Virus record (IMG/VR): IMGVR_UViG_3300045999_011128
Location: 1 to 23,592 of that record
DNA: 23,592 nt
DNA from: a virus
Strand: one strand, 5' to 3'
The position numbers were made by a program, and so were the translations under genes. Of this stretch, positions 11,771 to 21,950 are shown one piece after another. The notes beneath the pieces are model-generated. The model had not been told where the DNA came from. It did no database searches and saw only the letters and a program-made list of their open reading frames with translations. Numbering within the stretch: the stretch's first letter is position 1; the number at the start of each line of letters is the position of its first letter.

Positions 11771-12532
11771 ATGATTGGACTGATATCTCTTTTGCAAGAA
11801 ATACAAGGTAAGCCAAAAGCAATTTTTATGGCTGGACCTGCTGGCTCGGGTAAGTCCTTTATTTTAAAAAAATTAGTTCCTTCTAATTTTAATGTTATAA
11901 ATGTAGATGATACCTATGAGGAATTACTTAAATCTTCAGGTATTGGGATGAAGTTAGCTCAAATGTCACCTGATGAATTAAAAAAGGCAGGTGAGTTAAT
12001 GGGTCAAGCAAGAAAAACAACAGATAGTAAATATCAAGATGCAACTAAAAATTTAAAAAATCTTGCTATTGATAGTGTAGGTGGTTCATCTAAAACCTTA
12101 CTTAAGAAAAAATCAGAATTAGAAAATTTAGGTTACGATACAATGATGGTAATGACTTATGTATCGCCTATAACGTCACTAGAGCGTAATAAACAGCGAG
12201 ACAGATCATTATTACCAGGTATTGTGATTCGTTCCTGGCGCGACGTAAATAAAAATATAGACGTATATAAACAAGCATTTGGAGATAGTTTTACAATAGT
12301 AGATTTAAATCCTGAAGATGCTAATAAAAGTTTTGATGAAGATTATATCTTTAAAACATACATCAAACCTTTAGGACAAGTAGGTAAAGAAAAAACTCCT
12401 GAAGAAAAAGCAAAATCTGAAAAAGAAGCCAAACAAATCAATTCAGATATAAAACAATTAATCTCAACTCAACCAGAGTTTGATACAATAGAACAAGCAC
12501 AAACAAAAATCACTAAATTTATAAACAAATGA
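11771..12532 (+). CDS. P-loop kinase-like protein, zeta-toxin-like, with cargo-type leader (253 aa)
   Basis: A Walker A loop, GPAGSGKS, occupies residues 22-29 after a strand (KAIFMA). VINVDD at 42-47 resembles the Asp pair that follows in zeta toxins and polynucleotide kinases. RNKQRDRSLLPGIVIRSW (139-156) resembles the Arg-rich lid of that group. The protein would therefore phosphorylate a small molecule, sugar nucleotide or nucleic-acid end. Residues 1-10 (MIGLISLLQE) precede the fold, are amphipathic and end in L-Q-E. The C-terminal 50 residues are Lys/Glu-rich helix. It starts behind promoter motif copy 2 and overlaps the next gene by ATGA. Kinase fold: fairly sure. Substrate and toxicity: unknown. 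Confidence 0.75.
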   Translation: MIGLISLLQEIQGKPKAIFMAGPAGSGKSFILKKLVPSNFNVINVDDTYEELLKSSGIGMKLAQMSPDELKKAGELMGQARKTTDSKYQDATKNLKNLAIDSVGGSSKTLLKKKSELENLGYDTMMVMTYVSPITSLERNKQRDRSLLPGIVIRSWRDVNKNIDVYKQAFGDSFTIVDLNPEDANKSFDEDYIFKTYIKPLGQVGKEKTPEEKAKSEKEAKQINSDIKQLISTQPEFDTIEQAQTKITKFINK

Positions 12533-12903
12533 AACTAGTAGACTTATTAAACGAAGTAGAAAAAAAAGAAAAACCAGTTAAGGAAGTAGCTCCTGTTCAA
12601 GAAGCTGAATCTACTGTAGTAGATGAAATTGGTAAATTCTTTGTAGTTAAAAAACCTGGTAAAGGTATGACTAAAGAAGATATGGTATATGAAGCTACTA
12701 TATTTGATGAAATTAAAATGGACGAAACTAAAGGTGCTTATAAAAATAGATCTGAGGCAAATCGTCATGCTACTGAAGCTTTAAAAGAATACGAAATGCA
12801 GCTTAAAGAAATGGAAGATGCTATGGAAGCTTTCCGTTCTGCTAAAAAAGATATTGAAGAAAAAAAAGCAACTGCTAAAGAAAAAATTCAAAAACTTAAA
12901 TAA
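12529..12903 (+). CDS. Coiled-coil hypothetical protein with cargo-type leader (124 aa)
   Basis: Begins MKLVDLLNEVEKKEK, an amphipathic leader with L-N-E at residues 7-9. Residues 30-70 contain a small predicted alpha/beta part (EIGKFFVVKKPGKGMTKEDM), and residues ~75-124 are a long charged helix (EALKEYEMQLKEMEDAMEAF, then Lys/Glu repeats) likely to form a coiled coil. It overlaps the gene before (ATGA) and the gene after (TAATG). No family is recognised. A core or scaffold-like internal head protein is one possibility given the highly charged helix. An antitoxin partner for the upstream kinase-like gene is less likely. Confidence 0.7.
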   Translation: MKLVDLLNEVEKKEKPVKEVAPVQEAESTVVDEIGKFFVVKKPGKGMTKEDMVYEATIFDEIKMDETKGAYKNRSEANRHATEALKEYEMQLKEMEDAMEAFRSAKKDIEEKKATAKEKIQKLK

Positions 12904-15674
12904 TGAACTCCCTTACCAAAGTCTTATTAGAAGATCTTTTGGAAGCGGAAAACAAAAAAATAACCGCTATTTATGGTGGTGGATTTAAACCACCTACCAA
13001 AGGACATTATGCTGTTGTCGAAAAAGCTGCTGAACAAGACCCTGAAATTGATGATATTATCATTTATGTGGGTGGGGGTGAGCGTGATGGTATTACTCAA
13101 GCTGAATCTATTCAAGTTTGGGAATTATATAAAAAATATCTTCCTTTAAAAGTAAGAATTGAACCATCAAAAGCACCTGTGGGTGATGTTTTACGTTATG
13201 CTAAAGAACATCCTGATGAGGAAGTACTTTGGATTATAGGTGCTCGTGAAAATAATCCTGAAGATTTTGCTGATATTGCTTCTAGAACTAGAACAATAGA
13301 TAAATACCCTAATCTTCAATTACGAGTTATTCAAACCTCAGGTGGTGTTAGTGGAACGGCAGCTCGTAAAGCTGTAAGAGATAATAACAAAGAACAATTT
13401 TTCCACTTAATCCCAGACATCGAGGAAAAAGAACAAGTATGGGATATTGTATCTCCTGTTATTAAAGAAGGTTTTGTAGATGATTTAAAATCTAAGTTTA
13501 ATAAATTTATATCTGCTGCTAAACAAGAGGGTAAAGAAACTAAAGAAGCATTATCCTTATTAATTAAATCAGCTAAAGGTGACATTGATTTAACAGATGA
13601 CCAGAAAAAAGAAATAGGTAATCAATTAAAAGATGTTTTAAAATTAGTAGGTTTAACAGCAATCGCTACTTTACCTGGTGGATTTATTGCGGCTGCCTTA
13701 ATTAAGTTATTTAAAGCAGAATATTTGATTACACCATCTTCAATGATGAATGAATATAATAACACAGGTCCTTCTACACCAAAAGTTTATATTGTAAAAG
13801 CAGATGGAAATTATAAAGAAGTACCTATAGAAATATTATCTAAAATCCCAAATCTAACATATGATATGGGTGGTGGTGAAACTAACTTTTTTCCTGAAAA
13901 AAATATTGTTATAGTAGACAATATTCCTATAAACCAATTTGCTCAAGAACCAGGTGAAATAAAAGATGAAAAAATATACGTTGAATATAATTTAAATCAG
14001 CCTTTTAGTTTTCCTAAAGCAAATAAAATTATAGCTTCTCAAATAGTATATCATTTAGGTGATATTAAATCTTTCGCTAAAACAATAAATGATTCACTTA
14101 AAAATGGAGGTACGTTTCAATTCTTTAGTGATTTAATGAATAAGCAAGATAAAGAATTTTTAAATTACTTATCTAGCGAATATAGATTTGGTTTACCTAA
14201 AAACTTAAATCCTTATAAAGGAGGAAATCTTTTATTAAAAAAAGGAGACTATACTGAACCTGTTATATCTTACATTTACAGTGTAACCGATGCTGAGGGA
14301 AATACAGCAAAAATATCTGTTACTAAAGAAGGTAGATGGTGGGAATATGCTAAAATTGAAGGTGATATAGATTTTAAACCTAGTAAATGGAGTGTTGAAC
14401 CTGAATATAAGTATAACAATATAATTCCAAGTAAGGAGAATGTTTTAGATTCTTTTTCTCAAGCTCTAAAAACTGATATTGTAGATTTTAAAAAATTAAA
14501 TGAAACTTTAGATGAAGGATCTTGTGGTTATGATACAGATGTAGCAACAGGTAAAAAATTAGATACACCTGGTGGATTAAAAGAAGCTGATTCTATAAAC
14601 GAAGGTCGTTATGATAGTATTTCAAGACAATTAGCTAAACTTACATTAAATTATTGGAAAGAAGGATTTGCCAAAGGTAAAAATGAAATAAATTACATTG
14701 ATAGAATTACCCCTGATGAATATCCGACAGATTTAGAATTTTTATACAATGGTGAGGTTATATTTACCTCAGCAGGAGATAAATATTCTCATAATGGTTA
14801 TGCTATGTCTAGAGGTGAGTCTAAAGATGGTACTCCTAGAGTAGGAGTTAATTATTTTGTTCCTAAAGATATGATTCCTCAAGGTTGGGAAGAAATTTAT
14901 ATGGATTTAATTACTACTCTTCGTCATGAAATTGAACATTTAACTCAATCAGGAGGTAATGTAAAACAAGGTAAAGAAATGGGTAGTGATATGAAACTAC
15001 GTAAACTTATTGGTACCAATAAAGATGTAGTAAGATACGTTTTATTACCCAAAGAAGTAGATGCTAATGTTCAAGGTTTATATTTAAAAGCTAAAAAATG
15101 GAGACGTCCTTATGTAGAAGTAGTAGATGAATGGATTAAAGATTTTTTAAAAATTAAAAAACAAAGTGATATTGATTTAATTAAAGGAATATACGATAAA
15201 AGAGCTAAAGAATTAAATTTACCTGCTATCCAAGAAAATGATCCTTTTGGTATTAAAGCATATGCTCGTGAATTAGTTAATGAAGCTTTAAAAGACACTT
15301 GGAATCCTAAAGAATCATTCGTATCTTTATCTAAGTTCATGATAGACAATGGAATGAATATCACCCCATTGCCTAAAATTAAGGTTATAAAGGATGATAA
15401 AGAAAACGCATCCAATCTTTTGGGTAAAACGGCTTACTATGATCCGAATAATAAATCAATTACTCTATTCACAATGGATAGACACCCAAAAGATATTTTG
15501 CGTTCATTTTCACATGAAATGGTTCATCATGAACAAAATTTAAATGGAAAACTAAATAATATTAATACAACCAATACAAACGAAGACGGAGATTTACCTG
15601 AAATCGAAAGAGAAGCATACGAAAAAGGAAATATAATGTTACGTAATTGGGAAGACACGATTAAAAATGTATAA
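12903..15674 (+). CDS. Multidomain protein: nucleotidyltransferase, hydrophobic helical module, two zinc metalloprotease domains (923 aa)
   Basis: Residues 1-16 are a leader (MNSLTKVLLEDLLEAE). Residues 20-175 form a cytidylyltransferase-like nucleotidyltransferase: GGGFKPPTKGH at 25-35 (the (H/T)xGH site) and VSGTAARKAV at 149-158 (the SxTxxR site). Residues 190-280 are helical with a hydrophobic stretch at 248-270 around TLPGG, loosely LETM1-like. Residues 294-445 look like a degenerate methyltransferase fold (YDMGGGE). Residues 568-770 carry HEIEH at 675-679 and 780-923 carry HEMVH at 871-875, two HExxH zinc sites, with Glu718 and Glu902/904 as possible third ligands. Tripeptides I-K-E 187-189, L-N-E 532-534, I-N-E 565-567 and I-Q-E 776-778 fall between modules. 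It is probably a processed polyprotein or a multi-enzyme internal protein. Confidence 0.8.
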   Translation: MNSLTKVLLEDLLEAENKKITAIYGGGFKPPTKGHYAVVEKAAEQDPEIDDIIIYVGGGERDGITQAESIQVWELYKKYLPLKVRIEPSKAPVGDVLRYAKEHPDEEVLWIIGARENNPEDFADIASRTRTIDKYPNLQLRVIQTSGGVSGTAARKAVRDNNKEQFFHLIPDIEEKEQVWDIVSPVIKEGFVDDLKSKFNKFISAAKQEGKETKEALSLLIKSAKGDIDLTDDQKKEIGNQLKDVLKLVGLTAIATLPGGFIAAALIKLFKAEYLITPSSMMNEYNNTGPSTPKVYIVKADGNYKEVPIEILSKIPNLTYDMGGGETNFFPEKNIVIVDNIPINQFAQEPGEIKDEKIYVEYNLNQPFSFPKANKIIASQIVYHLGDIKSFAKTINDSLKNGGTFQFFSDLMNKQDKEFLNYLSSEYRFGLPKNLNPYKGGNLLLKKGDYTEPVISYIYSVTDAEGNTAKISVTKEGRWWEYAKIEGDIDFKPSKWSVEPEYKYNNIIPSKENVLDSFSQALKTDIVDFKKLNETLDEGSCGYDTDVATGKKLDTPGGLKEADSINEGRYDSISRQLAKLTLNYWKEGFAKGKNEINYIDRITPDEYPTDLEFLYNGEVIFTSAGDKYSHNGYAMSRGESKDGTPRVGVNYFVPKDMIPQGWEEIYMDLITTLRHEIEHLTQSGGNVKQGKEMGSDMKLRKLIGTNKDVVRYVLLPKEVDANVQGLYLKAKKWRRPYVEVVDEWIKDFLKIKKQSDIDLIKGIYDKRAKELNLPAIQENDPFGIKAYARELVNEALKDTWNPKESFVSLSKFMIDNGMNITPLPKIKVIKDDKENASNLLGKTAYYDPNNKSITLFTMDRHPKDILRSFSHEMVHHEQNLNGKLNNINTTNTNEDGDLPEIEREAYEKGNIMLRNWEDTIKNV

Positions 15675-16212
15675 GCTAACAGATTTATATAAACAAATTA
15701 AAGAAGAAGCTAATGCGACTACCCCACAATATAAAATTTATTGTGATATGGATGGTGTATTAGTAGACTTTGATAAAGGTTATAAAGCATTAACTGGTAA
15801 AGAAACAAGTCATGTTGATGTTCAAGGTAAAAACGAGTTTTGGAGCACTTTTAAACAAGGTCTTGAAAATAAAAAAATGAGTGAAAAGGATTATTGGGCA
15901 AACTTAGAATGGATGCCTGATGGTAAAGAGCTTTGGGACCATATTAAACAGTACAAACCAACTTTACTTTCAGCCCCTTCAAGAGATCCACAATCTCGTT
16001 GGGGTAAACGTATTTGGGTAAAGAAAAATATCCCCGGTACACCTTTAATTCTTGCAGCAGCTCCAATGAAAAAGAATTATGCTAAAAAGAATGCAATACT
16101 TATAGACGATAAGATTTCTAATATCAACGAGTGGAATGAAGCTGGTGGTATTGGAATTCTTCATACTTCAACATCAACAACATTAGATAAATTAAGCAAA
16201 TATGGCATTTAG
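15667..16212 (+). CDS. HAD-family 5'-nucleotidase-like protein with cargo-type leader (181 aa)
   Basis: HAD motif I is YCDMDGVLVDFD, with nucleophile Asp27 and acid/base Asp29. Motif II is the Ser of TLLSAPS (Ser102), motif III a Lys in PMKKNYAKK (135-140), and motif IV Asp147-Asp148 in AILIDDKISN. The layout fits the 5'(3')-deoxyribonucleotidase (NT5C-like) branch common in phages, which dephosphorylates nucleoside monophosphates. Length is typical. Residues 1-15 (MYKLTDLYKQIKEEA) lie outside the catalytic fold and contain I-K-E at 11-13, like its neighbours. The start overlaps the previous gene by 8 bases and its end overlaps the next by 11. All catalytic residues are present. Confidence 0.85.
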   Translation: MYKLTDLYKQIKEEANATTPQYKIYCDMDGVLVDFDKGYKALTGKETSHVDVQGKNEFWSTFKQGLENKKMSEKDYWANLEWMPDGKELWDHIKQYKPTLLSAPSRDPQSRWGKRIWVKKNIPGTPLILAAAPMKKNYAKKNAILIDDKISNINEWNEAGGIGILHTSTSTTLDKLSKYGI

Positions 16213-17187: not shown

Positions 17188-17810
17188 TGGAATTTACAAT
17201 GTTTACTACTATTATCGTTGCTCTAATTACAGCAGTGATAGGACCAGCAGTATTAGAATGGGTAAGAGCCAAATTAAAGAAAAAAGAAGTTGAGGATAAA
17301 AAATCTCCTGTAAAAGAAGCTATTGATATTAATGAAATAATTGATCATCAATTAGAACAAATTATGGAAGAACTTAACTGTGATCGTATTTGGTTAGCTC
17401 AATTTCACAATGGAGGTCATTTTTACCCAACAGGAAAATCCATTCAAAAATTTTCTATTTTTTATGAAAAAATGAATCCTGATATTCAAGCAGTACAACA
17501 TGTTTTTCAAAATATTCCTGTTTCTTTATTTCCAAAAGCATTATCTAAATTATATAAAGATGGAGAGTTAGGCATTGTTAGTTACAATACTGATGAAAAT
17601 TATGACTTGATGATGTTTCAAAAACAATATGGATGTAAATCTTTTTATATGTTGGCCTTAGATGATTTAGATGATCATTTTATAGGTGTATTAGGAATCG
17701 CATTTACTGAACAAGAACACAAATTATCCAGAGAAGAATGGATATTTATAAGACAGAAAGTGGGTGCTATTGGTTCCCTTTTAACAGACTACTTATACAA
17801 TAAGAAATGA
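17184..17810 (+). CDS. Membrane-anchored GAF-like domain protein (208 aa)
   Basis: Residues ~7-24 (FTTIIVALITAVIGPAVL) are a single N-terminal membrane segment followed by a Lys/Arg-rich stretch (28-40), so the bulk should stay in the cytoplasm. Residues ~50-205 resemble a GAF sensor fold: CDRIWLAQFHNGG, the following YPTGKSIQKFS, and FYMLALDDLDDHFIGVLGI as the central strands, ending in a helix. There is no kinase, cyclase or nuclease domain attached, so it would act by binding a ligand or a partner at the membrane. It overlaps the next gene by ATGA. The GAF resemblance is by pattern and should be tested by profile search. Confidence 0.7.
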   Translation: MMEFTMFTTIIVALITAVIGPAVLEWVRAKLKKKEVEDKKSPVKEAIDINEIIDHQLEQIMEELNCDRIWLAQFHNGGHFYPTGKSIQKFSIFYEKMNPDIQAVQHVFQNIPVSLFPKALSKLYKDGELGIVSYNTDENYDLMMFQKQYGCKSFYMLALDDLDDHFIGVLGIAFTEQEHKLSREEWIFIRQKVGAIGSLLTDYLYNKK

Positions 17811-20020
17811 AAGATATTCAAAAAATTAAAGAATTTTTCTCTAAACCTTTAGAAGAAGTTAAAACAGATAAATACGGTAATCATATTGAACCTCAATTTA
17901 AAAAAGGTGATAAAGTAACCTATTTAGGACACCCAGCAGAAATTACAGCTATCAATAAAGAAATGGACGGTACCTATAGCTATAGTGTATTCTACGATAA
18001 AGGTCAGGGTAAAACTAAAGCAAGTAATCTTAAAAATAAAGGTGGTGAGATTAAATTAACTGAAGCATCTAATGTTTTTAATTTAGAAACAGCAGTTGCG
18101 GAACTTATGAAAGCTTATCATCTTAATAAAGAAAAAGCTTTAAAAATTATAAATACAACTCCTCAAATAGAAAAAATTATTAATCTTGGTTACGCTACAT
18201 CAGCCCCAGAAGCTTTAGGTAAGGTTCATGGTGGTGCAGCTCGTACTTTTAATTATTTAGGTAGTCTTGATAAAATAAACGAAGAATATACAGTTGCTGG
18301 TCATTCTGTGACGTTAAACAAAGGTACAAAATCAGATGGAACTGATTGGACTGTAACTTTTAAAAACGGAAAATTAAAACCATTATCTGATGTTTTAGCT
18401 TTAATTAAACCAATGCCTAAAGGTATTACAATGAACGAAGTTAAAGAAGAAACAGGGGTTGACATGGTCAAAAAGAGATTAGATGCTTTAGGTGTTAAAT
18501 ACGAAATGTCAAAAACTGATAAAGTAAGACCATTTAAAGTAATTTACAAACCAGTTAACAAATCAGATAAATTTTATGATGAATTTGAAGATATTGTTGA
18601 TTTATTTAACTTAAAAGGTTTTGTAAAACAATCAATGAGTGAAGCAAAATTAATTTCTGACTATAAAATAGGTGATATTATTTCATTTAAAGATGGTGAG
18701 GATTGGAAAGTAATAAAGGTAAAAGATAACATAGGTAAACTTGTTATTAAACCTCACAATGAAAAAGCTAAAGAAGGAAACGTTAGTTTAGAAATTGACA
18801 TTGATGCTGATTATCTTAAAAAAAATCTATTAGAAGTAAAATCAGAAGATAAAGTAGATACTATAACAATGGATATTCCTTTATTCCTTCGTATGTTAGA
18901 ATACTCAAGAGAAGATGCTTCTCAAGACATGGATTTACATGACGTTACCGAAAAAGCAAATAAATTAGGTAAAGAAAGAGGTATCTTATCTATGGAAGAT
19001 TATGAGGAAATTGTAGGTGCTGCTGAAAAAATAAACGAATACAACCCAGACCAAGAACAATTAGACGATGAAGATGAAATCTTTGTGTCTTATGATGATG
19101 AAGGTAGACCTTTAGAAGAAGCAAATGTTCCTTCAAATATTAGAGATTTTGCTAAAAGAAAAGGTATATCTTCTTTAGTTAATAAAGTAGCAGGTTGGGC
19201 TGAAAAAGTAGGTGCTCGAATTGCTGGTGGAACAGCTATTGGTAAAAATTATAGTACGCTTGTTTTAGATTTAGATTATAAACAACAAGGTGAAATTCGC
19301 ATTGATACAGATGAAGAAACAATTGAATTATACGATGAACCAGTTTATGATTTTAAATCATTCCAACGTGTTTATATTGATGGAGCTGATAATAATTTAG
19401 AAGAAGGTGAAGAAGAACAATTATCATTCATCAGTAAAGCTCGTGCCAAATCATCTCTAAGACAATTCCTTTCAGGTAAACGTGATGATGGGATGGGTAA
19501 ATTTGATGCAATAGTATATGGTATAGATTCAGATGGTAAAAAACACCAAATTAAATATTATAATCATTTACAAGATTACGAAAAATTTGCATTAGGTGAT
19601 AACCCAGATATAAAAGAAGCTAAAAACACATCCTTAGATTCTGAAACCATCAAACAAATTAAAGATGATATTAAGGGATTTCCAAAATATCAAAAACGAG
19701 GATATGAATCTTTCAAAAAAGAAGTACGTGAAAAATATAATATAACTCCAAAACAATTAGAGGATATTTTACATGGAGATTTAAAAGAAAATGTTGCTCC
19801 TAATCACGATGGAAAAGCAGCTCCTTATGGTTCAGGATATAAACCATTAGAAGAAAGAATTGCCAAAGCATTAGATCAAATTAACGAAGAACTTTGCCCT
19901 GCAGGTAAAGCATATAGAAAACGTAGAATGGAAGCTGGTGAAAAATCATCTGCTTATCTTTCAGGTCGTGCTGTTAAAGTATGTAAAGGACAAATGTCTG
20001 GTAAAAAGAAAAAGAAATGA
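17807..20020 (+). CDS. Multimodule protein with (I/L)-x-E junctions and basic Cys-containing tail (737 aa)
   Basis: Starts MKDIQKIKEFFSKPLEEV, an amphipathic leader with I-K-E at 7-9 and L-E-E at 15-17. Residues ~30-80 are an SH3/KOW-like small barrel (KKGDKVTYLGHPAEI). Similar barrel-like sequence recurs at ~284-345 (YKIGDIISFKDGEDWKVIKV). Other modules: 160-205, 215-280, a helical acidic part 350-430, 440-600, and 605-660. Candidate cut sites are L-T-E 84-86, I-N-E 157-159, I-N-E 409-411, L-E-E 436-438, I-K-E 602-604, L-K-E 659-661 and I-N-E 692-694. The last site releases a ~43-residue tail that is strongly basic, with two cysteines (ELCPAGKAYRKRR, KVCKGQM, terminal Lys run), a likely DNA-binding peptide. 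No enzyme motif was found. Confidence 0.75.
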   Translation: MKDIQKIKEFFSKPLEEVKTDKYGNHIEPQFKKGDKVTYLGHPAEITAINKEMDGTYSYSVFYDKGQGKTKASNLKNKGGEIKLTEASNVFNLETAVAELMKAYHLNKEKALKIINTTPQIEKIINLGYATSAPEALGKVHGGAARTFNYLGSLDKINEEYTVAGHSVTLNKGTKSDGTDWTVTFKNGKLKPLSDVLALIKPMPKGITMNEVKEETGVDMVKKRLDALGVKYEMSKTDKVRPFKVIYKPVNKSDKFYDEFEDIVDLFNLKGFVKQSMSEAKLISDYKIGDIISFKDGEDWKVIKVKDNIGKLVIKPHNEKAKEGNVSLEIDIDADYLKKNLLEVKSEDKVDTITMDIPLFLRMLEYSREDASQDMDLHDVTEKANKLGKERGILSMEDYEEIVGAAEKINEYNPDQEQLDDEDEIFVSYDDEGRPLEEANVPSNIRDFAKRKGISSLVNKVAGWAEKVGARIAGGTAIGKNYSTLVLDLDYKQQGEIRIDTDEETIELYDEPVYDFKSFQRVYIDGADNNLEEGEEEQLSFISKARAKSSLRQFLSGKRDDGMGKFDAIVYGIDSDGKKHQIKYYNHLQDYEKFALGDNPDIKEAKNTSLDSETIKQIKDDIKGFPKYQKRGYESFKKEVREKYNITPKQLEDILHGDLKENVAPNHDGKAAPYGSGYKPLEERIAKALDQINEELCPAGKAYRKRRMEAGEKSSAYLSGRAVKVCKGQMSGKKKKK

Positions 20021-20310
20021 TTACACGAGAGCGACTACAAGAAATAATATCTGAATCATTACGTGACTGGTTTAAAAAAGAAGACTGGGTACGTATTGAT
20101 ACTCAAGGTAATATTACTGGTCCTTGTGGGACAATGAAAAAAGGTGGAGCTACAACAAGATGTTTACCTCGTAAAAAAGCTCAATCACTATCTAAAGCCG
20201 AACGTGCTAAAACATCACGTAAAAAAGCATCTGCTTCTCGTAAAGGAAAACAATTTGTAAAAAATACAGAAAAAGCAGAATACAAAAAAGGCACATATCA
20301 TAAAAAATAA
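20017..20310 (+). CDS. Highly basic small protein, likely DNA-binding, with leader (97 aa)
   Basis: Residues 1-13 (MITRERLQEIISE) form a leader with L-Q-E at 7-9 and I-S-E at 11-13. Residues 22-55 hold a conserved-looking block (DWVRIDTQGNITGPCG, then TTRCLPRKKAQSLSKAER) that I recall as a small domain of unknown function in T4-like phages. The remaining 40 residues are Lys/Arg/Ser/Ala-rich with no acidic cluster. If the leader is removed, the product is a small, very basic peptide suited to neutralising packaged DNA. Coupled to the previous gene by ATGA and followed by a 26-base gap with promoter motif copy 3. Confidence 0.75.
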   Translation: MITRERLQEIISESLRDWFKKEDWVRIDTQGNITGPCGTMKKGGATTRCLPRKKAQSLSKAERAKTSRKKASASRKGKQFVKNTEKAEYKKGTYHKK

Positions 20311-20336: not shown

Positions 20337-21950
20337 ATGGCAAAATTCGACTTAAAAAAAGCTATACTAAAAAATAAAGCTACATTTTTTGGTTCATTGA
20401 CTGAAGGTCAATTTTCTTGGTTTACCCAAGATACAGACCAACAAATTGGTTCTGAAGATGAAAATACTCTTCCTTTTGTTTACATGCACGATAATAAAGG
20501 TAACAAATGGTTAGAAAAAAATTATGAAGGATATGGTGTGTTTGGTGGTAAAGATTACTACGAATTATTAGACCAAATGAATGGTGGAGATGGTGATAGA
20601 AGTAGAGGTATTGATTTAGCTTTTAATGATGAAGCCGTTGCTGCTGGTAAAGTATTATTCCCAGCACTAACTGTTAGTGCAACATTACCTTCATATCACA
20701 GTTTTAATGAAGAACCAAAAAATGATCCAAACCAATCTTGGTATACTCCTGAAGAGGATGAAGAAAATGATTATGATTCTTATTTTGGAGATATGGATAG
20801 AGAAGAAGATTATGATTATGATGAAGAAGAATTAGATGAAGCAGAACTTCCTGCTTTAGCTGCTGATCAAGTTGAAAACATTGCTCAACAATTAGCAGAT
20901 AAATTTTCAGAAACAGATGATTTAGACATTAAATTCTCAATCACCCCAGGTTCAATTGAAGCTTCTCCTAAAGGAGCAGGATTTGATCTTGATACAATGG
21001 CTGGACCAAACACTCCTGGTGGAGATTGGAAAGATGAAAATGGCTTTGATATCGATAACTACTTGGGTAAATATGCAGGTGGTTCTTATTACATTAAACC
21101 CGAAGGAGGTAAACATAAGATTTATAACGCCGCCGCACAAAATGCTTATATTGGACACGTTACTCCTCAAGGTGAGGTAGTATTTGAAATTCCTGGTTTC
21201 GAAGGAACTATGGATCAATTAAACTCTCTTGAAGAAGAAAAACCAAAAACAAAAATGAAAAAATCCGAATTAAAAGAACTTATCAAGTCATCTATTATGA
21301 ATGAAATGTATGTTGATATTGATAATATGGAAGATGCTCCTGAATCAGAAGTTGATTTCTTAGCCGAAGTTGATGCTATTTTAGCTGAAGCAGATGAATT
21401 TGAAACAGCAAAACCAGCTCGTATTACTTCATTTCTTAAAGCACTTGATCTTCTTGTGTATGATGAATACCACGCAGAATTATACGATTCTGATGAAGTT
21501 AAACAAGCATATGATCTTTTAGTAAAAGCTGCTAAAAAATTAGGAAATTTAAATGAAGCTGATGAAGAAGTAGCAGTAGACGATACTGAAGTAGCCGTTG
21601 ATGGTGAAGAAAATATTGATGTTGATACAACAACAGAAGTAGATCCTAATGTAAAAGCAGTACAAGATGCTTTAACACAAGCCCAAGCAGCTGCTCAAAA
21701 ATTAGGTGATCCTAAATTAACAGATCAAATTGGTAATACAATTACATTCTTTACTCGTGCACACGTAGTTGATAAAGGTGCTGTTGCTGAAGCTGATGAA
21801 ATGGAAGAAGGTAAAAAAGAGTATTACAAAGATGCTGAAGCCGATGATGCTGAACATATCAACGCCTTAGAAAAAGATATGAAAGATGATAAAGATTCAT
21901 CTATGAAAATCAAAGAAGTTGTTTTCCCAATGTGGCAACGAATTAAATAA
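20337..21950 (+). CDS. Acidic multidomain protein, possible prohead core/cargo (537 aa)
   Basis: Residues 1-23 (MAKFDLKKAILKNKATFFGS then LTE) form a basic amphipathic leader. Residues 24-120 are a domain with NKWLEKNYEGYGVFGGKDYY and RGIDLAFND, which I remember from marine phages. Residues 138-175 are an acidic run of Asp/Glu/Tyr. Residues 180-290 are a mixed domain. Residues 307-323 repeat a leader-like helix inside the protein (MKKSELKELIKSSIMNE). Residues 355-405 are helical, 405-435 acidic, 438-480 helical (QDALTQAQAAAQKLG, then GNTITFFTRAHVV). There is no catalytic motif. Overall charge is strongly acidic, as in core/scaffold proteins, but no family match can be claimed. It follows promoter motif copy 3. 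Confidence 0.75.
   Translation: MAKFDLKKAILKNKATFFGSLTEGQFSWFTQDTDQQIGSEDENTLPFVYMHDNKGNKWLEKNYEGYGVFGGKDYYELLDQMNGGDGDRSRGIDLAFNDEAVAAGKVLFPALTVSATLPSYHSFNEEPKNDPNQSWYTPEEDEENDYDSYFGDMDREEDYDYDEEELDEAELPALAADQVENIAQQLADKFSETDDLDIKFSITPGSIEASPKGAGFDLDTMAGPNTPGGDWKDENGFDIDNYLGKYAGGSYYIKPEGGKHKIYNAAAQNAYIGHVTPQGEVVFEIPGFEGTMDQLNSLEEEKPKTKMKKSELKELIKSSIMNEMYVDIDNMEDAPESEVDFLAEVDAILAEADEFETAKPARITSFLKALDLLVYDEYHAELYDSDEVKQAYDLLVKAAKKLGNLNEADEEVAVDDTEVAVDGEENIDVDTTTEVDPNVKAVQDALTQAQAAAQKLGDPKLTDQIGNTITFFTRAHVVDKGAVAEADEMEEGKKEYYKDAEADDAEHINALEKDMKDDKDSSMKIKEVVFPMWQRIK
21255..21311 (+). other. Internal leader-like segment with its own ATG
   Basis: Codons 307-325 of the acidic 537-residue protein encode MKKSELKELIKSSIMNEMY. 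Its first six residues, MKKSEL, are the same as the N-terminus of the gene at 23225, and the helix resembles residues 62-77 of the gene at 22128 (NKNRIKELVRKSLMHE). This looks like a fused start of a formerly separate gene, or an internal translation start. Confidence 0.4.

Follow-up and report, generated by a model that had tools for sequence, protein, structure and literature searches.

A likely head-packaged cargo polyprotein of a T4-type phage, with modules exchanged at prohead-protease-type motifs

Polyvalent proteins are multi-domain phage proteins in which zincins are the commonest domain and for which packaging into the head and injection have been proposed (Iyer et al. 2017, PMC5512222). 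The internal proteins of phage T4 are packaged and many are ejected, Alt being an ADP-ribosyltransferase; the T4 protease gp21 cleaves after L/I-X-E, and the first ten residues of IPIII are enough for it to be packaged, positions 4 and 7 serving targeting and positions 8 and 10 serving processing (PMC9026906). The subject of this study is one gene of IMG/VR virus record IMGVR_UViG_3300045999_011128 (positions 1 to 23,592, hereafter the window). The likely role of its product is that of cargo polyprotein in a T4-type phage: it would be packaged in the head and cut by an S77 prohead protease after [ILVM]-x-E, and the products would be injected. The phage carrying it is probably one of Flavobacteriia.

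The gene had been read from its letters alone as a nucleotidyltransferase, a hydrophobic helical module, a degenerate methyltransferase-like module, and two zincin sites, with (I/L)-x-E tripeptides at the junctions as candidate cuts releasing at least four proteins. The single frame of 923 residues is present at 12903-15674 on the plus strand with an ATG start. The motifs TKGH (residues 32-35), SGTAAR (150-155), HEIEH (675-679), and HEMVH (871-875) lie where they had been placed, as do the tripeptides IKE (187-189), LNE (532-534), LDE (536-538), LKE (559-561), INE (565-567), and IQE (776-778). Further [ILVM]-x-E triplets occur in the leader (LLE 8-10 and 12-14) and at joints (MNE 282-284 and VNE 792-794). 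With E counted as P1, the proposed consensus stands as regards L and I at P3, but V or M is also found there. The N-terminus, MNSLTKVLLE↓DLLE↓ (arrows mark predicted cuts), is a short leader ending in L/I-x-E, as in T4-type internal proteins. The proposal that the sites at module boundaries would mark cleavage into at least four products is strongly supported by comparison with relatives, both by the exchange of modules at the sites and by modules standing alone behind leaders.

Scanning viral contigs with the whole protein gave seven loci, and scanning with the N-terminal domain gave 115, of which 80 were kept; a scan of genome contigs added one relative among 18 pattern matches. The collected loci (L numbers) hold 82 distinct open reading frames (ORFs) with the nucleotidyltransferase, the C-terminal zincin-like domain, or both. 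Identical proteins were removed ahead of all counts. The 46 complete ORFs holding both terminal domains range from 360 to 1337 residues and have shuffled modules, so that the same modules are found in other orders as well as in separate genes. In the examples examined, the nucleotidyltransferase usually comes first and the zincin-like domain last, with extra modules behind or ahead in L040, L041, L075, L078, L085, and Flavobacterium phage vB_FspM_immuto_2-6A (hereafter immuto). The variable modules include the LETM1-like helical module, VGE↓ANLKPYKW, a Zn-ribbon, a GCGYD peptide, a basic GTGKKP module, a PYGSGF peptide, the GRYD module, the NDPFG peptide, pol-beta-like and ParB-like modules, and others.

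The edges of these exchanges fall at the motif. Clean module indels (at least 15 residues, comparing relatives whose aligned columns are at least 80% identical, with incomplete ORFs and those under 330 residues dropped) number 66 distinct cases, and 30 of them are flanked on both sides by [ILVM]-x-E, compared with 0.5% at random and none of the 66 for each of six control motifs. At least one edge carries the motif in 60 of the 66 (controls, 5 to 30). A second measure used the edges of BLAST blocks among 55 proteins, after identical proteins, near-duplicates, and those under 250 residues were dropped. Without filtering, the motif is at 26% of 924 starts and 26% of 933 ends, with about 11.5% at random. 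For high-scoring segment pairs (HSPs) of at least 70% identity, an [ILVM]-x-E cut point lies no more than two residues away for 54% of the 85 block ends and 52% of the 149 starts (random, 8%), and 39 of the ends coincide with it exactly; at this setting [ILVM]-x-D, [ILVM]-x-Q/N, and x-E preceded by other residues are at or under random. When edges are collapsed to distinct ones, the motif is at 10.2 of 16 ends and 9.7 of 18 starts, where random placement gives 1.9 and 2.0 with a maximum of 6 in 200 draws.

Individual joints behave in the same way. The GRYD module is directly preceded by [ILVM]-x-E in 58 of 58 distinct contexts collected by the HExxH pattern, with an exact-place background of 1.7%; the 58 exclude six HExxH rows spelled GVYD, GIYD, or GKYG, all of which show LNE or VAE ahead. 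This recount replaces an earlier 56 of 56, which was biased at P1 because one scan pattern included the E before GRYD. With a wider GRYD pattern, P1 is E in 65 of 65, and P3 is L in 40, I in 10, M in 9, and V in 6. At the end of the nucleotidyltransferase, the motif occurs within a 22-residue stretch in 53 of 55 distinct contexts (background, 26%); by eye, it stands at the joint itself in 52 of the 55, though the downstream sequence differs. It is found within a 28-residue stretch at the start of the C-terminal zincin-like module in 49 of 49 contexts (background, 32%), and no more than ten residues upstream of the basic module in 71 of 72 and of the Zn-ribbon in 38 of 38 (background, 12%). The LETM1-like module is gained or lost among relatives, and the GSCGYDT..GGLKE↓ peptide is the first module after the leader in L212, L215, L216, L217, and L219.

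Several modules also stand alone behind a leader ending in x-E: the module of residues 285-534, the GRYD zincin-like module, the basic module, and the deoxynucleotidase. The module of residues 285-534 was found at one other place, the one relative among seven pattern matches (L106 2971-3738), as a 255-residue gene in which MIKLLDLLKE↓ is followed directly by a module 72% identical to that of the window. The leader thus terminates in E exactly at the joint of the window polyprotein, and the L106 module ends in DYKKLN where its counterpart ends in DFKKLNE↓. The adjoining gene (L106 2121-2957) has the leader MIKLLDLLRE↓ on a leucine-rich-repeat-looking protein and is near replication-looking rather than head genes. 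In L197 the GRYD module is a separate gene headed by MIKLIDILKE↓, and it likewise follows leader variants in L178 and L191; L083 also has a stand-alone module version with a leader. In 14 ORFs the basic module comes first behind such a leader, and the deoxynucleotidase, a separate leadered gene in the window, is fused to the polyprotein C-terminus in L073, L075, L078, L079, L085, and L092.

Among 1880 distinct ATG ORFs of the collected loci, those with the ten-residue form M..[LIVFY]..[LIVF][LIVF].X have E at position 10 in 270, S in 45, K in 28, G in 8, A in 7, D in 6, Q in 6, and other residues in fewer. There are 231 distinct leaders ending in E, with the consensus MI(K/S)L..(I/L)L(K/N)E, some of them being chance matches such as a tail-gene ORF in L034 and L035. 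The leaders match T4 capsid-targeting sequences in length and at the key positions. In immuto, 22 of the 34 genes in the head-cargo stretch have an [ILVM]-x-E that ends within residues 5-20, compared with 45 of the 199 remaining genes on the plus strand (p 2.3e-6; 233 of 239 genes counted, six minus-strand genes dropped), the stretch having been picked post hoc after the motifs were listed; of six control motifs only [ILVM]-x-K differs (p 0.006). One alternative is that the protein is an uncut polyvalent protein whose modules are injected as one chain, the x-E being merely a habit of linkers. Some polyvalent proteins, the N4 virion RNA polymerase among them, are packaged unprocessed (PMC5512222). 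Yet the other motifs containing E or hydrophobic residues bound no indel on both sides, and stand-alone genes end their leader in the same tripeptide, where a linker is needless; an uncut chain is therefore unlikely.

The protease and capsid gene expected of a T4-type phage are present in relatives. In immuto, gp070 is a Peptidase_S77 (E 9e-35) and gp066 a Gp23 (E 6e-84). Of 20 records searched, nine have S77, among them all seven of at least 118 kb; the 11 records without it are 19.5 to 58.3 kb. Gp23 is present in 9 of 9 S77-bearing relatives. Capsid N-termini could be read in six of ten loci, and all six have a conserved (L/I)V[STMV]E near residue 60, close to the 65-residue length of the T4 gp23 propeptide (PMC9026906). 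This is taken as the candidate maturation site, with LLE and ILE triplets also upstream in all six; if the capsid matures there, V at P3 would be acceptable in the clade. The L041 record (268739 bases) has S77 at 31291 and 233494 and Gp23 at 34203 and 237186, about 200 kb apart, and is perhaps two joined phage genomes.

A second putative polyprotein of the window belongs to a family of 387-1024 residues in relatives and shares a PYGSGY..PLxE peptide with the first. Its indels have [ILVM]-x-E at both edges in 8 of 19 cases, with 0 of 19 for six controls. HExxH is absent from the window copy and from the 19 members first collected. This bears on a further alternative, in which the zincin-like modules process the chain themselves and x-E is their recognition site; the chain does have two HExxH sites, and processing by zincins was proposed by Iyer et al. 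2017 (PMC5512222). That the second family uses the same edges without HExxH speaks against processing by the zincin-like modules alone. A member collected later (L149), however, carries the GRYD module behind the N-terminus of this other polyprotein, so that uptake of a zincin-like module is possible. Leadered genes without a zincin likewise end their leader in x-E, the motif is of the gp21 type, and a gp21-family protease is encoded by relatives. Autoproteolysis is thus quite improbable. It is very improbable indeed that the edges reflect DNA recombination at a short conserved sequence with no proteolysis: module shuffling is clear and the P1 codon at the GRYD joint is GAA in 60 of 65, but P2 there varies over nine residues and P3 uses 11 codons, yet P3 is always L, I, M, or V and P1 always E, and the constraint therefore acts on amino acids.

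If the polyprotein is cut by the prohead protease, leader residues 1-14 would target the chain into the prohead core, and a T4 gp21-type S77 protease would cut after E at [ILVM]-x-E. The predicted products are the NadD/NMNAT-like nucleotidyltransferase, the LETM1-like helical part, the module of 250 residues, both zincin-like metallopeptidase modules, and the short peptides; all would stay in the head and be injected with the DNA, as the leaders and gene neighbourhood suggest. Because the cut sites flank modules, a module can be acquired, dropped, or swapped, or can stand as a single gene with its own leader. The released NadD/NMNAT-like enzyme could restore nicotinamide adenine dinucleotide in the infected cell, and the released zincin-like modules could cleave host proteins. 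A broader reading, somewhat more probable than not, is that Flavobacteriia phages of the T4 type and related phages have a general delivery cassette system, in which a domain that is leadered or preceded by [ILVM]-x-E would be packaged, cut free, and injected, and would be exchanged at the cut sites. In such a system the head protease would act as polyprotein proteases do in RNA viruses, with a shared pool of effector modules spread over two or more polyprotein genes and numerous single genes. Capsid cargo would then be readable from sequence, the leaders and x-E joints showing which parts are packaged and where they are cut; the question of how injected multi-domain proteins yield separate effectors would have an answer that can be tested, and there would be a natural rule by which several proteins are loaded into a phage head as a single chain. 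The comparison also points to an uncharacterised pool of early-infection modules (zincin-like, pol-beta-like, ParB-like, NadD-like, and many nameless).

Several observations weigh against this reading of the polyprotein. Five [ILVM]-x-E triplets lie within domains (VVE 38-40, VWE 72-74, IEE 173-175, VDE 741-743, and LPE 898-900); the motif alone therefore cannot define a cut, and some intradomain triplets are probably not cleaved. Counted against shuffled sequence, in the spirit of the check that the sequence-only reading proposed, the sites are not enriched: the polyprotein has 15 [ILVM]-x-E where 18.0 are expected from composition (z -0.9), and immuto gp088 has 20 where 20.2 are expected. 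Mere presence is therefore uninformative; it is the location of the sites, not their number, that exceeds chance. At the end of the nucleotidyltransferase, L055 has KD (D replacing E), L071 has FKE, and immuto has no motif. P3 V or M departs from the L/I of T4. Some control motifs show lesser excesses at HSP edges of at least 70% identity, namely the reversed motif on both sides (z 3.4 and 3.8, reaching z 5.6 within the filtered test), [ILVM]-x-K at ends (z 3.2), and [DEKNQ]-x-E at ends (z 2.6). At collapsed edges, the reversed motif is found at 4.0 ends and 5.0 starts, and [ILVM]-x-D at 5.2 of 18 starts (random, 2.5). The relatives share descent, so the counts are not independent events. The S77 search of the window's own 23.6 kb record gave no match; the record is a fragment.

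The predicted structure adds to these points. The full-length AlphaFold2 (AF2) model is poor overall, with a mean predicted local distance difference test (pLDDT) score of 54.8. It is confident mainly at residues 17-272 and 799-919 and moderate at about 696-773; scores are below 50 for residues 1-16, most of 273-695, and 774-798, which include the middle sites. A helix spans 187-189, with block confidence dropping from 90 to 74 to 61 around the site. The model neither refutes nor proves that the middle sites are in linkers.

The labels given to the modules fared differently. The nucleotidyltransferase holds up: Foldseek matches it to NadD-type enzymes (E 3.6e-6, template modelling score 0.65 by target), and related nucleotidyltransferases, PPAT structures included, also match this N-terminal part. 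TKGH and SGTAAR fit the (T/H)xGH and SxTxxR-type motifs of NMNAT/NadD enzymes. The LETM1-like match is to NF040639 over residues 208-263 (E 3.1e-5, 23.6 bits, far under the cut-off of 250). The methyltransferase label for residues 285-534 is not borne out; there is no Pfam match to E 1, the best PDB profile is an arginine methyltransferase at E 0.89, and the AF2 model is mostly below 50 pLDDT. The zincin label keeps its two HExxH motifs, but profile support is weak (Peptidase_M91, E 0.0057, under cut-off), and a model of the GRYD module (AF2 pLDDT 79) has no PDB fold match at E 0.001. PDB sequence searches for A1, A2, and A5 gave no meaningful match. In relatives, Polbeta is matched in L054 (E 1.2e-6) and ParB-like PHROGs in L057 (E 2e-5) and L041 (8e-4). 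Where modules of relatives look like ART, GNAT, or Cys-peptidase domains, family matches are weak or absent, and these labels therefore come from motif reading.

Some relatives have other arrangements. A 1117-residue polyprotein (L278, from 4774 onward) has two GRYD-type modules and an NT5C-like end; its contig is binned as Winogradskyella and is probably a phage contig. In L264 (from 1340) and L204 (from 2744, both locus coordinates), a HAD-type-phosphatase-looking first module replaces the nucleotidyltransferase in long ORFs. The polyprotein ORF stops early in L023 (3586-4857, 284 residues) and L039 (3301-4921, 282 residues), with modules continuing in the next ORF, through a frameshift or a real split.

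Features of the window are collected in Table 1. Sister genes of the Zeta-toxin/kinase-like gene (11771-12532), with leaders similar to its own, lie upstream of the polyprotein in many relatives. The scaffold-like ORFs at 20337 and 22083 have only one and no indels, respectively, too few for the edge test. In positions 1-46500 of the immuto genome (L103), annotated genes include QueC, QueD, QueE, and DpdA (queuosine-type DNA modification), GroEL, and GroES.

Table 1. Features of the window, with predicted cuts marked by arrows
Feature	Coordinates	Strand	Basis
Cargo polyprotein gene (putative), 923 residues, ATG start	12903..15674	+	ORF list; module-shuffled relatives
Leader, residues 1-14, LLE↓DLLE↓, predicted capsid-targeting propeptide	12903..12944	+	Ten-residue leader form; pLDDT <50 for 1-16
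Nucleotidyltransferase module, residues 15-189, ends IKE↓	12945..13469	+	Foldseek; end motif
LETM1-like hydrophobic helical module, residues 190-284, ends MNE↓	13470..13754	+	NF040639; indel in relatives
Module of residues 285-534, ends LNE↓, without confirmed family	13755..14504	+	Stand-alone gene in L106
TLDE↓ spacer, residues 535-538	14505..14516	+	Motif positions
23-residue peptide module GSCGYDT..GGLKE↓, residues 539-561	14517..14585	+	Recurs between x-E sites in relatives
ADSINE↓ spacer, residues 562-567	14586..14603	+	Motif positions
GRYD zincin-like module (HEIEH), residues 568-778, ends IQE↓	14604..15236	+	[ILVM]-x-E before module in relatives
16-residue peptide NDPFG..VNE↓, residues 779-794	15237..15284	+	Recurs ahead of terminal zincin-like module
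C-terminal zincin-like module (HEMVH), residues 795-923	15285..15671	+	Peptidase_M91, below cut-off
NT5C-like deoxynucleotidase gene, leader ..QIKE↓	15667..16212	+	phrog_2643, E 2.8e-29
Small gene, leader MKLVDLLNE↓	12529..12903	+	Sister genes with ten-residue leaders
Zeta-toxin/kinase-like gene, leader MIGLISLLQE↓	11771..12532	+	PF06414, E 3.2e-9
Second putative polyprotein, 737 residues, without HExxH	17807..20020	+	Indel edges at [ILVM]-x-E in family
Small basic protein, N-terminal LQE↓IISE↓	20017..20310	+	Motif reading

Among the closest known systems is the homologue gp088 of immuto (NC_055915.1), which has 907 residues and is annotated as an NMN adenylyltransferase. The genes around it have the annotations primase, exonuclease, and 5'-3' deoxyribonucleotidase, a neighbourhood that resembles that of the window polyprotein by eye and annotation, without alignment. 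The gp088 protein shares the nucleotidyltransferase, zincin-like, and GRYD modules separated by x-E, but differs in module order, in having no ten-residue leader, and in an extra N-terminal part that looks pol-beta-like by eye and has no family match. As an isolated phage, immuto offers a test system for the cargo-polyprotein reading.

No report of exchangeable, protease-punctuated cassettes was found in the open-access literature (subscription journals were mostly outside the scope), and the arrangement is not described in the available parts of PMC5512222, PMC7411985, PMC7824862, PMC9503650, PMC9026906, and PMC10052503. Like polyvalent proteins, the chain has at least two disparate domains (a NadD-like fold, two HExxH regions, and a weak LETM1-like part), and the family shares with them zincin, pol-beta nucleotidyltransferase, ParB-like, GNAT, and ART themes and mosaicism (PMC5512222). 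Processing of polyvalent proteins has been proposed to be by built-in zincins or assemblin-like domains, whereas here there are joints of the prohead-protease type and leadered single genes; in the available part of that paper the word "prohead" occurs once, within a reference. In giant phage SPN3US, the prohead protease likewise processes packaged and ejected proteins, with several propeptide cuts at an AXE motif in gp53 and gp54, but those cuts remove propeptides, whereas here they would separate modules (PMC10052503); the word "polyprotein" is absent from the available text of that paper on giant-phage ejection proteins. The T4 internal proteins and Alt share with this family the ten-residue leader with its positions 4, 7, 8, and 10 and the L/I-X-E cut (PMC9026906). 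T4 cargo consists of single proteins with terminal propeptides, whereas here several cargo units would be carried per chain and P3 extends to V and M. The system thus joins two known kinds, the polyvalent proteins and the T4 internal proteins.

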